A model generated the notes under the pieces. The model did no database searches, was not told where the DNA came from, and saw only the letters and a program-made list of their open reading frames with translations. Made by a program: the position numbers and the translations under genes. A DNA stretch of 64,000 nt from Phycisphaerae bacterium (GTDB taxonomy: Bacteria > Planctomycetota > Phycisphaerae > UBA1845 > Fen-1342). Positions within the stretch are counted from its first letter, which is position 1. The number at the start of each line of letters is the position of its first letter. This document shows, one piece after another, positions 41,836 to 48,889 of this stretch. The stretch lies in contig JAJVHV010000017.1 of assembly GCA_022072445.1 (NCBI GenBank), positions 1 through 64,000 of the forward strand, given 5' to 3'.

Positions 41836-43494
41836 CTACGGCGCGACGAGCAGGGCCAGGAACGGCTCGATGTCGAAGCCGTCGATACGGCCGTCGCGGT
41901 TGACGTCGGCCCGCAGGCGGACGTTGTCGTCGGGCACGTCGCCCATCAGGGCGTTGACGAACGGCTCGATGTCGGCGGGGGTGACCGAGCCGTCGCCGTC
42001 GAAATCGCCCTGCACGCGGACGAACTGAATCGTCTGTCGCGGCGAGACGTGGCTGGCGGAGTTCCAGCTTCCATCAGGCCAGGTGACTGTGATAACGTCG
42101 GCGTGCGGCGCGGAGCCGAGGCCGAAGAGCAGCGAGCCATCCTCCTGTGAATAGAAGCTCATGCCGCTCGTGAGCTCGCGGAGTTGTGTCACGCCCCCGG
42201 CGGTCAGCGTGACACGCGAACCGATGGCCTGCGGGTTGTGGCCGGTCCGGTCGGCGAGGCGCACGCGGAGCCAGTTGGCGGCGTTTCCGCCGTCATTTCG
42301 AAACAGCAGCGCCGGGCCGCCGGTGTTGGTCAGGATCAGGTCGAGGTCGCCGTCAAGGTCGTAGTCGACGGCGGCGAGTCCGCTGGCGGTTCCGACAGGG
42401 GCGAAGCCGGCGGCGGAGCTGACGTTCTCGAACGTGCCGTCGGCGCGGTTACGGAAGAGTCGCGATGCGCCGGCGCTGTTGGTGACGGCAAGGTCGAGCC
42501 AGCGGTCGTTGTCGTAGTCGAGAGAGGTTACGCCCCAACTGAAACCCGTATCGCTGACGCCGGCGGTCTTGGCCACGTCGGTGAACATGAGGCCGCCGCC
42601 GGTGCTGAGGGCGCTGCGGAAGAGGCGGTTTCCGCCCATGCCCTGGATGGTGTAGTCGGTCGTGTAGACGTCGAGGTCGCCGTCGTTGTCGTAGTCCCAG
42701 GCGACGACACCCATGTCGGGGGCTTTCTTGGTGATGCCGACGTTGAAACCGACGTCTTCGAGCAGGCCGTCGAGGCGGTTGATGAAAACGCGGCTCTGGG
42801 TCCAGGTGTCTTCGGGGACGAAGACGTCGGTGCGGCCGTCGGCGTTCAGATCGGCGGCGAGCGGCTGCCAGTTGATGCAGCCGTCGCTCATCGGCAGGCA
42901 CGGCAGCATCAGCGTCATCGTGCCGTCGCCGTTGTTGTGGTAGACTAAGTTTCCCGGGGCGGCGGTGGAGCACTCGCCGGCGACGCCGACGAAGAGGTCG
43001 AGGAAGCCGTCGCCGTCGTGGTCGAAGGCGGTGATGCCCTTGAAGAAGAGCTCGGTGAATCGTTCGAGCAGGCCGGCGGCGTCGCTGATGTCGATGAACC
43101 CGCCGCCGACGTTTCGCAGCAGGCGCACGCGGTTTTCGCCGCCGGCGTTCTGGCTGTTGAGCGCCACATCCAGACGGCCGTCGTTATCGAGATCGAAGAA
43201 GACCTGCGAGATGGTGATTTCGGGGGTGCGGACGCCCCAGGCGGCGCCGACCTCGGTGAACGTGCCGTCGCCGTTGTTCAGATAAAGCTCGTTGTTGAAG
43301 CCGGCGACGTCATTGAAGAACAGCTCGGCGTAACCGTCGCCGGTGAGGTCCACGGCGCAGACGCCGGAGTGGTTGATGGCGGCGTGATTGGTGAAGTTGA
43401 TGCCGGCCTGGGTGGTGACGTTGGTGAAGACGGGGTCGGCCAAGGCGGTGGTGGCCAGGAGGGCGGCGGTGAGGGTGACTGTGGGTCGGCACAT
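41836..43494 (-). CDS. FG-GAP/ASPIC-UnbV propeller protein with dockerin-like tail
   Basis: A 552-aa secreted protein. The signal peptide ends ATTALA. VCBS/FG-GAP blades are seen in [60 protein letters not shown] and [12 protein letters not shown]. An ASPIC/UnbV-type segment follows: [24 protein letters not shown]...[10 protein letters not shown]. The C-terminus has two dockerin-like units, [21 protein letters not shown] and [21 protein letters not shown]. The calcium-loop content suggests an extracellular, surface-attached role. Confidence 0.86.
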
Positions 43495-43869
43495 ATCGGA
43501 TTCTCGAATGCGGGGCGCACCCGCGGATGCGGACTTGCCCGGCTGGCTCGACGCGAGCTGAAAGCGAACGGCGAACTGACGTAGCGCGCAGCGCGGCAAA
43601 CGAATGGCGAGCGCCGTGCCGCCCCGCGACATAGAGAGTTTAGTCGGCGTGATGGCGTGGCTCAAGTTTTTCCGCGTGTGGTGACGGACGGGGGTCCGAT
43701 AAGTGAGCGCGGGCGGAGAATGGCGAGTAGCGAGTCGCGAATGACGAATGAATCGGCGAGAGCCGGATTTCGGTATTCAAAATCCGACATTCGCCATTTC
43801 ACGCGCGGGTTCCGACCGCCGACGCCGGTTCATTGACCGGCCACGTCCGCGCCGGGTAGGCTGCGACGA
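43495..43869. other. intergenic region with small repeats
   Basis: No gene is supported. At about 43717-43752 a run of GCGAGTAGCGAGTCGCG and GAATGACGAATG elements resembles, in style, the AGAATG-type run inside the flavoprotein gene. No promoter with both boxes is clear. Confidence 0.5.
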
Positions 43870-45009: not shown

Positions 45010-46332
45010 ATGCGGATTCTCATACTTCAATTCGTGCCGGACGTGCGTGGCCGCCCCCTGCCGCGCTTCGAGCCGCAGCTCGGGACGCTCGGCGCACTCC
45101 TGCGGCTGCGCGACCACGAGCTCGGGCTGATCGCCCTGACACGCTATGACCAGGCGGCGCTGAAGGCGGCGCTGGCGCGGTACCTGCCGCAGCTCATCTA
45201 TGCCGACGTCTCGGCCGTCTGCATTGACGCCGCCCGCCGGACGCTGCAATACGTCGCCGAGCACGAGTTCGTGCCGGTGGTCGCGGGAGGGCAGTTTCCG
45301 ACGGTCGATCCTTCGGCGGCGCTGAGTTTGCCAGCGGTGCAAGCGGTGGCGATCGGCGAGCCGGACGCCTCGCTGGTGACCTACCTGGAGCGGATGAAGG
45401 ACCCGGCGGTGGGGCAGGTCGTGTCGGGGGTCTGGCTGCGGGATGAGCAGGGCTTGGCGCGGCCCGACCTGCCAGCACTGGTGGAGGACCTTGATTCGCT
45501 GCCGTTTCCGGAGCGTGACCTGTTCAACTACGCGGACGTTGTTCGGCAGACCGGCCAGATTGAGATCGCGGTGGGACGCGGCTGCCCGCAATCGTGCGCC
45601 TACTGCATCAACGACTGGGTGGAGTCGCTCTACGAGGAGAAGGGTTCCTGGACGCGGCGGCGCTCGCCGGGGAACATCGTCGATGAGATCGATCTGCTGC
45701 GGAACCGCTACGTGGGGACGCGCAGCGTTCGATTCCTGGATCACGCCTTTGCGCTCGACCGGACTTGGATCGAGGCGTTTCTGCCGGCGTATCGGGCGGA
45801 GATTGACCTGCCGTTCCGGTGTCATCTGCGGGCCAATGCGCTCGACGCCGACCTGGCTCGACACCTGGCGCAGGCGGGGTGCCGCTGGGCGGACGTGGAG
45901 CTGGTGAGCGGGAGCGACTTCGTCCGCAACGAGATCTTCGACATGGAGCTCTCGGGCGAGCAGATCGACGCGAGCATGTCGGCGCTGCACGCCGCGGGGA
46001 TCAGCGCGCGCGTGGTCGTCTATCTGGGATCGCCGTACGAGAGCGAGGCCTCGCTGGACGAGACGGTGGCGCTTTTGGCGCGGCTGAAGCCGGCGAGCGT
46101 CGACGTGCGGACATATTTTCCCTGGCCGGGCACGCGGGCGGCGGAGACGGCGCGCGATCACGGCTGGATTCACCCGCGCGGCGAGGAGCAGTATCACCGC
46201 GGGCAGTGCGGCATCAACATGCCGGCGTGCCGACCGGACGTTGTGGCGGCGTACGTGCGGCGCTTGCAGCACGAGTTTCCCGCCGCGGTTGGGGAGCCGT
46301 GGTGGCGGCGGTGGACGCATTTCGGCCGGTAG
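45010..46332 (+). CDS. B12-binding-type radical SAM protein
   Basis: A 440-aa protein. Residues 1-150 have the B12-binding-like Rossmann layout (FVPDVRGRPLPRFEPQLGTLGALL; VVAGGQFPTVDP) without a visible DxHxxG cobalamin-ligand motif. The radical SAM cluster ligands are C192-P-Q-S-C196-A-Y-C199. SVRFLDHAFALDRTWIEAFL, RCHLRANALD and the TIM-barrel strand VVVYLGSPYESEASLDET fit MiaB/BchE-like radical SAM enzymes acting on unknown substrates. It is downstream of the membrane protein and the 65-aa ORF. Confidence 0.85.
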   Translation: MRILILQFVPDVRGRPLPRFEPQLGTLGALLRLRDHELGLIALTRYDQAALKAALARYLPQLIYADVSAVCIDAARRTLQYVAEHEFVPVVAGGQFPTVDPSAALSLPAVQAVAIGEPDASLVTYLERMKDPAVGQVVSGVWLRDEQGLARPDLPALVEDLDSLPFPERDLFNYADVVRQTGQIEIAVGRGCPQSCAYCINDWVESLYEEKGSWTRRRSPGNIVDEIDLLRNRYVGTRSVRFLDHAFALDRTWIEAFLPAYRAEIDLPFRCHLRANALDADLARHLAQAGCRWADVELVSGSDFVRNEIFDMELSGEQIDASMSALHAAGISARVVVYLGSPYESEASLDETVALLARLKPASVDVRTYFPWPGTRAAETARDHGWIHPRGEEQYHRGQCGINMPACRPDVVAAYVRRLQHEFPAAVGEPWWRRWTHFGR

Positions 46333-46538: not shown

Positions 46539-47642
46539 CTACGCCTTCCCGTTCACGCTGAATACGTAGAAACTGCCGTACGTCGCCGAGCGATCCGTCG
46601 CAAACAGCTCGCGCGCCAGATCGGCGTGCGACGTCACGTGCTTGAGAATCGTCGTCGGCGGATCGAGCTTGTAACTGCCCGAGCGGTAGATGAACGTCGC
46701 CCCGGGCGCCGCCGCCCGCAGCACGCTGTGCAGCGTGGCCTCAAACGCCTCCGGCGTCATCCAGTCGAAAATGTCGAGCAGGTTGAACTTGTGGATACTC
46801 CCCGGCGGGAGCGAGTCGAGGTAGGGGCCGAGCCAGCCGTTGACGACCTGCACGCGGTCGAGGTTGTTCTTGAGCGTCTCGAAATTCTCCTCGAGCAGGT
46901 AGGGCGGCACGTAGTTCCCGCGGAAGCGGCCTGAGACGGTGATGCTCAGGAAGTAGTTGTTGTAGATCGGCACCTGCGTCAGGACGTACTCGATCCGCTC
47001 CTTGACGTAGTCGAACATGTCGTGACGGTCGTCGACCAGGTCGAACTGCCTCGGGTGCACCCCCGCCAGGTACATGAACGGCCGAAAACGGATCAGGGCC
47101 TTGCTGGCCGGCCCCCAGAAGCGCCCGGCCAGGTGCCGGTTGTACCAGGCCCGCTGCTCTTCGAGCGTGCGCGAGTCGAGGAATTCGTCGATCTGCTCCG
47201 GGCGCAGCATCGTGTGCAGATAGGCCCGCAGAATGCGGCAGAACAGGCCCATCCGCCCGAACTGGTAGACCCCGCGGGCCGCCATCCACAGCCGCTTGTC
47301 CCAGAAACTCCGCGCTTTGGCCGACAGGCACGGCCGCAGCCGGCTGCGATAGACACTCGTCACACGCGACGGCCTGCGGGCCGCGAAGATGTCGAAAAAC
47401 GTCTCGTGGTCCAGCGTCGCAATCCCCGCCAGCTTCAGCTCCAGCAGCGCCGTCTGCGCCGGGTTCGAGTCGATGCTGATCAGCTTGCGCGGGCTCTGGC
47501 ACAGAAAATTTAGCGGGTTGCAACCCGCCGACGTGATCGAAATCACCACGTCGTCGGGCGTGATGCGGAACGCCCGGCGATCCATCTCCGGGTCTTCCCA
47601 CGACATGTTGAACACAATGCCGCGGAAGACCAGGCTCTCCAT
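46539..47642 (-). CDS. btaA: BtaA-like (DUF3419) S-adenosylmethionine:diacylglycerol 3-amino-3-carboxypropyl transferase
   Basis: A 367-aa protein of the DUF3419/BtaA family. BtaA transfers the aminocarboxypropyl group of SAM to diacylglycerol, the first step of the betaine lipid DGTS. Family signatures: FNMSWEDPEMDRRAF at the N-terminus, ISITSAGCNPLNFLCQSP, LISIDSNPAQTALLELKLAGI (SAM fold) and near the C-terminus FNLLDIFDWM and TFIYRSGS. The ATG at 47642 starts at MESLVFRGIVFNMSW; the frame continues over the btaB end and is ignored. It lies 28 nt after a methyltransferase matching BtaB, so the pair can make the whole headgroup. Confidence 0.85.
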   Translation of the reverse strand: MESLVFRGIVFNMSWEDPEMDRRAFRITPDDVVISITSAGCNPLNFLCQSPRKLISIDSNPAQTALLELKLAGIATLDHETFFDIFAARRPSRVTSVYRSRLRPCLSAKARSFWDKRLWMAARGVYQFGRMGLFCRILRAYLHTMLRPEQIDEFLDSRTLEEQRAWYNRHLAGRFWGPASKALIRFRPFMYLAGVHPRQFDLVDDRHDMFDYVKERIEYVLTQVPIYNNYFLSITVSGRFRGNYVPPYLLEENFETLKNNLDRVQVVNGWLGPYLDSLPPGSIHKFNLLDIFDWMTPEAFEATLHSVLRAAAPGATFIYRSGSYKLDPPTTILKHVTSHADLARELFATDRSATYGSFYVFSVNGKA

Positions 47643-47670
47643 TAACCCGCGCCGGCCCGGACTCGGCAGG

Positions 47671-48321
47671 TCAATGACCGGGGCCAGCCCCGGCGTTCTC
47701 GCTGATGGCAGTAAAGTTGTAGCCGCCGAGCCAATGCTGAACGCGGACATTGCCGAAGACCTTTCTCATTTCCTCAACATAAGACTCGTGCGTCTGCACG
47801 TGGTTCAGCTTCAACCACCCACGCATCACCGGCTTCAGCGGCCCCCAGCCCGAGAACATGCCGAAATCGAGCACCGCGACGCGGCCGCCGGGCCGCAGAT
47901 GCTCCCGCGCGCGCCGCAGCGCCCCGGGCCAGTCCGGAATCATCGTCAGGCTGTACGCAAACAGAATCGCGTCGTACCGCTGGTCGCGGCTGAACGTCGA
48001 CGCGTCGTCCTGAACCAGCTCGACGCAGCGCCAGTCGTGCCGCGCCACCCGCCGCCGCGCCCGTTCCAGCATGTCGGCCGAAAAATCCAGTCCGGTCAGC
48101 CGGCCGCAGCTTGGGTCCAGATATTGCAGCACGTGCCGGAAGTTCAACCCGGTGCCGCAACCGATTTCGAGCACCGCGCTGTCCGGCCGCAGCCGCAGCA
48201 TCGCCACCGCGCGGGCCCGGCCGTGCAGAATCATCCAGCGCGTGAAGTCGTAGACGTACGCGTGAAATCGGTAGAACCGTTGAACCGCGGTCTGCGTCAA
48301 CGCGCGACACTCCTCCGGCAC
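47671..48321 (-). CDS. btaB: BtaB-like SAM-dependent N-methyltransferase
   Basis: A 216-aa class I methyltransferase. The SAM motif VLEIGCGTGLN is at residues 50-60, motif II GLDFSADMLERARRR, and YDAILFAYSLTMIPDW then HLRPGGRVAVLDFGMF follow. It resembles phosphatidylethanolamine N-methyltransferases, the group that includes BtaB, which trimethylates diacylglyceryl-homoserine. The start codon is GTG at 48321. It precedes btaA on the same strand. Confidence 0.82.
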   Translation of the reverse strand: MPEECRALTQTAVQRFYRFHAYVYDFTRWMILHGRARAVAMLRLRPDSAVLEIGCGTGLNFRHVLQYLDPSCGRLTGLDFSADMLERARRRVARHDWRCVELVQDDASTFSRDQRYDAILFAYSLTMIPDWPGALRRAREHLRPGGRVAVLDFGMFSGWGPLKPVMRGWLKLNHVQTHESYVEEMRKVFGNVRVQHWLGGYNFTAISENAGAGPGH

Positions 48322-48377: not shown

Positions 48378-48827
48378 TTAATCGCTGCCCGCGACCGGAG
48401 CAACGCCGTCCGTCGAGTCCGCGGGCGGTGATCGCGTCGCCCGCGCCGCCCGCGGCGGCAGATATCGGGCCAGCAGCTCGCGCGTCGCGGCCTCGCTCAG
48501 CGCCGCCTTGCCAAAGCCCGGCTCCGCGCCTGCCGCCTTCGCCGCGGCCTGCGCGTCTGCATGATTGCTGACCAGCATGATCGGAACGTCGCGCAGCGCC
48601 GGGCTGGACTTCATCCGCCGGATCAGCTCCGACCCGTCGCTGTCGTCCGCGAAAATCCGTCGATTTACGAGCACGAGGCGATAAGCGCGCTTCGCCAGCG
48701 CGACGAGCGCTTCGTCGACGAACATGACGCGATCCACCTCGACGTCAAAGCTGGTCGTGAGCATGGCGCGCATCGCGCCATGGTCCGGATCGCAATTCCC
48801 CACGTCCAGCACACACGTTCTGTCCAT
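48378..48827 (-). CDS. degenerate response-regulator receiver protein
   Basis: A 149-aa single-domain protein with receiver-like order: DVGNCDPDH (acidic pair), YRLVLVNRRIFADDSDGSEL, VPIMLVSNHAD and PGFGKAAL (Lys). The phosphoacceptor Asp is replaced by Asn55 in LVLVNRR, while the Ser in LVSNH and the Lys are kept. So it is probably a pseudo-receiver that does not take phosphate at this site. A Pro/Ala-rich tail follows. The ATG at 48827 is chosen; the frame opens further upstream near a tRNA gene. Confidence 0.65.
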   Translation of the reverse strand: MDRTCVLDVGNCDPDHGAMRAMLTTSFDVEVDRVMFVDEALVALAKRAYRLVLVNRRIFADDSDGSELIRRMKSSPALRDVPIMLVSNHADAQAAAKAAGAEPGFGKAALSEAATRELLARYLPPRAARATRSPPADSTDGVAPVAGSD

Positions 48828-48889
48828 GCTCTGTCCATTCCGCGGGCGACGGCCCGCGCGCGCTGGCGCGCGCTGCGACAACCCATCAA

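Follow-up and report, generated by a model that had tools for sequence, protein, structure and literature searches.

A predicted betaine-lipid operon with reversed gene order, btaB-btaA, from a third, early-branching BtaA lineage of uncultured Phycisphaerae

The window, by which we mean the whole stretch of 64,000 nucleotides analysed here (contig JAJVHV010000017.1 of a Phycisphaerae bacterium, positions 1 to 64,000), carries on its minus strand a btaB-like gene followed by a btaA-like gene. Both ORFs were found adjacent and in the same direction, as in the original prediction. The features of the locus are the following.

46539..47750, minus strand: btaA (DUF3419), 403 aa, predicted SAM:diacylglycerol 3-amino-3-carboxypropyltransferase
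47671..48321, minus strand: btaB, ORF from GTG 48321, 216 aa, predicted diacylglycerylhomoserine N-methyltransferase
47671..47750, minus strand: overlap of 80 nt between the btaB and btaA ORFs as listed
48310..48316, minus strand: GGAGGAG, probable ribosome-binding site of btaB, 9 nt before TTG 48300, read from the sequence
48378..48827, minus strand: degenerate receiver-like gene, directly upstream of btaB and co-directional with it, with a weak Response_reg match below the cut-off

The start of btaB, as read from the sequence, is probably TTG 48300 behind the GGAGGAG motif rather than GTG 48321, given that several relatives show TTG at the same place. In relatives, btaB and btaA are usually joined by short overlaps or separated by short gaps. 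The next gene upstream of the receiver-like gene in the window is a tRNA-Leu. Convergent with btaA lies a gene for a B12-type radical SAM protein (45010-46332, plus strand), whose nearest NCBIfam model, HpnJ, gave 74 bits, well short of the 577.6 required, and further away a minus-strand gene (41836-43665) encodes an FG-GAP/UnbV_ASPIC protein with a C-terminal dockerin type I domain.

The window BtaA matched PF11899 (DUF3419) with an E-value of 3.1e-87 over residues 42-397 of 403, spanning positions 6-383 of the 385 of the profile, and a search of the 5.25 Mb genome found no second DUF3419 gene. A scan of genome contigs gave Phycisphaerae and Phycisphaerales MAGs as the nearest named relatives (66-69% identity in BtaA). 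The btaB gene encodes a class I SAM methyltransferase (E-value of the top Pfam match 2e-20) for which none of the NCBIfam equivalogs scored above its cut-off; searching the genome with a profile of 14 BtaBs of the A-B type (btaA before btaB) placed it at rank 1 of 11 matches, with 163.3 bits vs 53.3 for the next one. The predicted structure of BtaA (pLDDT 90) is a class I SAM fold with a large helical insertion, around which the fold core takes up approximately residues 30-115 and 290-403, boundaries that were read from predicted secondary structure. VIA-align of this structure found numerous class I methyltransferases with Z scores of 13-15 (best 14.8), indicating the fold and not the function. 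Foldseek with the predicted structure returned no match at E < 0.001, and a PDB sequence search gave a single 15-bit match.

DUF3419 is a heterogeneous family, in which BtaB neighbours are lacking for many members. Residues were compared at columns defined from A-B-clade rows alone, which made the test of the window non-circular. The columns kept in at least 97% of the 77 A-B-clade rows numbered 43, and the window BtaA keeps 36 of them (84%), compared with 37-74% in 30 other DUF3419 proteins. Thirteen of the 43 are rare in the other DUF3419 proteins; 10 of these are kept in the window and at most 6 in any of the others. A set of columns that included the window's own lineage had given 43/43 and was set aside as circular. 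The window BtaA departs from the A-B clade at Y47F, Y82F, V93I, G123A, P232H, Y276F and W340L, and with seven A-B-clade positions changed an altered substrate or product is possible. Together, the PF11899 match, the residue test, the rank of BtaB in the profile search and the tree position described below support the identification of the pair as btaB and btaA with which the analysis started.

In a tree of 131 BtaA rows, the window fell inside a BtaB-linked clade of 101 rows (SH-aLRT 99), and the 24 B-A rows formed one group (SH-aLRT 100), with gene order changing once on the tree. The rows for this tree had been thinned by removing duplicate loci, a part of the near-duplicates and roughly half of L152-L224; L055 and L052, in both of which btaA reads as two ORFs, are absent from it. 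Further thinning gave a tree of 51 rows, whose root depends on a distant outgroup of other DUF3419 proteins, and in which the BtaB-linked clade comprised 45 rows including the window (support 100/97). Three lineages emerged, each with bootstrap 100: lineage I, consisting of the B-A operons; lineage II, of Alphaproteobacteria and some planctomycetes of the window's class; and lineage III, of other planctomycetes, Gammaproteobacteria and others. Lineages II and III join, leaving lineage I outside (100/97) on a stem of 0.79-1.0 changes per site, the deepest branch among the BtaB-linked BtaAs. The 24 B-A rows stood together in the BtaB tree as well (SH-aLRT 99), a tree of a short alignment with many weak forks. 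As judged from these sequence comparisons, the window operon is a member of a third, early-branching BtaA lineage with reversed gene order.

Analysis of the window's GTDB family revealed btaA in 23 of 27 genomes, with a btaB-like gene directly upstream in all 23; the four genomes without btaA are 83-84% complete. In one carrier (G020, locus L052) btaA reads as two overlapping ORFs and the btaB-like gene is still directly upstream, and in another (G015) an extra C-terminal BtaA fragment lies ~3 kb from the intact operon (L034:5546-5908, minus strand). Among 87 genomes of the rest of the order, four carry a close btaA relative (one in family f4, three in family f8) and two a distant DUF3419. BtaB is directly upstream in three of these four carriers, the exception being G481, where no BtaB occurs within the sequence stretch examined around its btaA. 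In all, BtaB directly precedes btaA in 26 of the 27 lineage I genes found in the order, indicating that the B-A arrangement is not due to chance.

Beyond the pair, gene clustering found no gene cluster in at least 4 of 25 loci. The one exception consisted of ORFs antisense to the operon that came from the greedy ORF caller, which is crude in this GC-rich DNA and missed the receiver-like gene. Direct search recovered the latter in 6 of the 25 loci, namely the window and 5 of the 24 loci of relatives, in each case directly upstream of btaB. Given that no other shared flanking gene was found, we consider the pair itself to be the conserved unit. Clear homologues of the stand-alone receiver-like protein occur in 8 of the 27 family genomes, six of them directly upstream of btaB, and its phospho-acceptor position is Asn (LVLVNR) in 6/6 rows. 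It is possible that the receiver-like gene is the first gene of the btaBA transcript.

The order of the two genes elsewhere was surveyed in 80 named bacterial loci, the best matches among at least 586 relatives and hence a sample biased towards the window's kin. B-A was found in 7 of the 80, all planctomycete (6 titled Phycisphaerae or Phycisphaerales and one 'uncultured planctomycete'), and A-B in 59, from Planctomycetota, Pseudomonadota, Acidobacteriota, Cyanobacteriota and Candidatus Sumerlaeota; in the remaining 14, BtaB was not found in the locus. The commoner order within Planctomycetota is A-B. The rhizobial records are likewise A-B, and the observation that the order here differs from the usual btaAB was thus borne out.

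In some genomes outside the window's family, the pair adjoins a predicted gene of phospholipid turnover. Two of the three family f8 genomes carrying lineage I have the order plcP-btaB-btaA, with the following genes next to btaBA.

L035:7495-8490, plus strand: PlcP/LpxH-like metallophosphoesterase
L238:2-673, plus strand: PlcP/LpxH-like metallophosphoesterase

In L035, plcP and btaB overlap by 4 nt (ATGA) and btaA begins one base after btaB; in L238/L242, both from one genome (G470), a gap of ~150 nt separates the plcP homologue from btaB. The third f8 genome with lineage I has its PlcP homologue on another contig. The f8 PlcP homologue is 46% identical to a Sinorhizobium meliloti protein annotated as UDP-2,3-diacylglucosamine diphosphatase, which we take to be a common annotation of PlcP. 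An LpxH-like metallophosphoesterase gene also lies directly upstream of btaA in many lineage III loci, including most of those of family f39. PlcP is reported to release diacylglycerol, on which BtaA acts, from phospholipids (PMC4796936, PMC3972451), and in Phaeobacter plcP adjoins btaA and btaB and its deletion abolished DGTS (PMC4796936). Of the functional evidence for lineage I, the plcP-btaB-btaA operon is the strongest, and it ties this lineage to phospholipid remodelling.

Based on these data, we consider it very probable that the window btaB-btaA is a betaine-lipid operon making DGTS, a membrane lipid free of phosphorus. BtaA would transfer the 3-amino-3-carboxypropyl group of S-adenosylmethionine to diacylglycerol, yielding diacylglycerylhomoserine, and BtaB would methylate the nitrogen of this product three times to give DGTS. 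The reading draws on homology, conservation of the operon and of residues, lineage and the plcP-btaB-btaA arrangement in another family, and from these we infer both enzymatic steps, the lipid formed and its location in the membrane. Weighing against it are the seven changed BtaA positions, the low identity to rhizobial BtaA (~29-33%), the G481 locus without BtaB and the btaA of G020 that reads as two ORFs. All 27 family genomes encode PS decarboxylase; PE is therefore also expected, and DGTS as the sole zwitterionic lipid was ruled out.

Two other accounts of the pair were weighed against DGTS synthesis. That the DUF3419 protein is a paralogue of the kind found in other biosynthetic clusters, with the methyltransferase as its chance neighbour, could be argued from the 30 DUF3419 rows that fall outside the BtaA clade, all without BtaB, those inspected sitting with dikinase, reductase, aminotransferase or AMP-binding genes. 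However, the window lies inside the BtaB-linked clade in both trees (99; 100/97), and B-A adjacency is kept in 26 of 27 genes while most flanks differ; given the tree and the kept adjacency, this account is largely refuted and we regard it as hardly credible. A genuine BtaA/BtaB pair might instead act on another lipid acceptor, such as an alkyl or branched glycerol, or stop short of three methylations. The depth and long stem of lineage I (0.79-1.0 changes per site), the seven changed BtaA positions and the shorter BtaB of lineage I (~204 aa vs ~245 in planctomycete A-B operons) would fit such a shift, whereas the retention of 10 of the 13 residues that separate BtaA from other DUF3419 proteins, and the presence of PlcP, a source of diacylglycerol, in the same operon in two relatives speak against it, and we hold a shifted product to be quite improbable.

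A separate issue, compatible with DGTS synthesis, is whether the operon is Pho-regulated, DGTS replacing phospholipid when phosphate is short. In favour of this, PhoU, pst-like genes and PhoB-like regulators are encoded in the window genome, PhoB control has been reported for rhizobial btaA and btaB (PMC3972451), and family f8 has plcP-btaB-btaA. A search for a Pho box upstream of btaB, proposed along with the original prediction, came out negative: in the 360 bp before btaB at 25 loci (two shorter than 360 bp and one of only 5 bp, too short to score), the mean best match was 8.28 of 14 vs 8.22 for shuffled sequences, using the E. coli-type consensus, by which boxes of other types would be missed. 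With the same consensus, the ~250 bp before the receiver-like gene, scanned at 6 loci and judged by raw score, gave 7/14 as the best match in the window. On visual inspection, a 9-bp direct repeat with an 11-bp period (ATGGACAGA, 48818-48840) resembled a Pho box; it lies across the start codon of the receiver gene and was dropped. PlcP homologues were found in 0 of the 27 genomes of the window's family, while the same query was positive in 5 of 9 other genomes, including all three f8 carriers, and the PlcP-like protein of f39 used as query gave no match in the window's genome. The phosphate link of the original prediction thus found no backing in either the Pho-box scan or the PlcP search; a phosphate role of the operon in the window's family is doubtful, and we give Pho regulation somewhat less than even weight. 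Since neither a Pho box nor a PlcP homologue was found there, we would guess, leaning neither way, that DGTS in this family is a standing membrane lipid rather than one made in starvation only.

The pattern TA[CG]ACT, which resembles the -10 element of sigma-70 promoters, lies in the 150 bp before btaB in 12 of the 18 loci that lack the receiver gene (shuffles averaged 0.2 and reached 2 at most) and in none of the 6 loci that have it. The pattern was spotted in the same data in which it was counted, two of the loci being near-copies, and we treat it as a lead only. TAAACT, TACTAT or TAAAAT precedes the receiver gene in 3 of the 6 loci, the window not being among them.

The btaA-btaB genes of the Alphaproteobacteria (Rhodobacter sphaeroides, Sinorhizobium meliloti; lineage II) belong to the same two enzyme families and are likewise adjacent and co-directional, with identities between window and rhizobial proteins of ~29-33% for BtaA and 29-34% for BtaB. 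The rhizobial records are nevertheless A-B and the window B-A, in separate clades with bootstrap 100 each, and whereas PhoB control was reported for rhizobial btaAB (PMC3972451), no E. coli-type Pho box was found before the window btaB. The A-B operons of lineage III (other Planctomycetota, Gammaproteobacteria and others) encode a BtaA ~29-38% identical to that of the window together with a BtaB partner; they often have a PlcP-like gene upstream (most family f39 loci) and, in planctomycetes, a longer BtaB of ~245 aa, and they cluster with lineage II, the window's lineage branching outside.

The original prediction further held that DGTS is little known in this kind of bacterium, which is half right. 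A 2023 tree already includes BtaA of planctomycetes, as a basal branch of the marine A-B clade (PMC10685587). Planctomycetes are, however, absent from a list of groups with reported betaine lipids in a 2023 lipidomics paper (PMC10667739), which also states that betaine lipids correlate with Planctomycetota among others. The open-licence papers searched contained no report of a lineage of reversed-order (B-A) operons, and no tested lineage I enzyme was found in the literature; the name 'btaBA' is used in passing in PMC4796936. Planctomycete BtaA itself is hence not new (PMC10685587), and what we did not find in print, within these open-licence papers, is the reversed-order lineage. The operon represents a third, early-branching lineage of predicted betaine-lipid synthases that is core to one family of uncultured Phycisphaerae, with no sign there of phosphate control, and some environmental betaine lipids may come from planctomycetes even where phosphate is not short.

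Bacteria make DGTS with BtaA and BtaB, eukaryotes with the fused BTA1, which exists in two domain orders, A-B (chiefly marine lineages) and B-A (freshwater and green lineages) (PMC10685587, PMC8752610). For DGTS, product-ion signals at m/z 144, 162 and 236 have been reported (PMC8752610). Type B BTA1 of green algae such as Chlamydomonas and Chlorella has the same B-A order as the window, but as one fused protein vs two genes here (PMC8752610). By analogy of gene order, the one feature common to both, the Phycisphaerae B-A operon might be the bacterial counterpart of the B-A BTA1 of green algae, plants and fungi, and the A-B planctomycete operons perhaps that of the marine-algal A-B BTA1, the two operons having been taken up separately and fused in place. 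We consider this unlikely; if true, the domain order of eukaryotic BTA1 would record the gene order of the donor. The existence of a bacterial B-A operon makes the origin of the two opposite eukaryotic fusions testable by one tree. Three scans of viral contigs for BTA1 yielded just a single A-B locus, of alphaproteobacterial type, and phages yielded none; the A-B pair on a 24 kb IMG/VR contig (L144) is close to rhizobial btaAB.

Outside the BtaA clade, DUF3419 was seen in other contexts. In L121:2366-6001 (plus strand) it is fused to a class I/II aminotransferase, and in L058, L059, L106 and L109 it lies beside PPDK-like, AMP-binding, ketoacyl synthase or NAD_binding_4 genes. In Bacteroidota, three loci (L192:3281-5149, L212:3299-5149 and L219:3185-5143, all plus strand) encode a membrane methyltransferase of the PEMT type (PF04191), a family different from that of BtaB, fused N-terminally to DUF3419/BtaA. 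These proteins are of 616-652 aa in 3/3 cases and, from their sequences, may possibly be one-protein betaine-lipid synthases.
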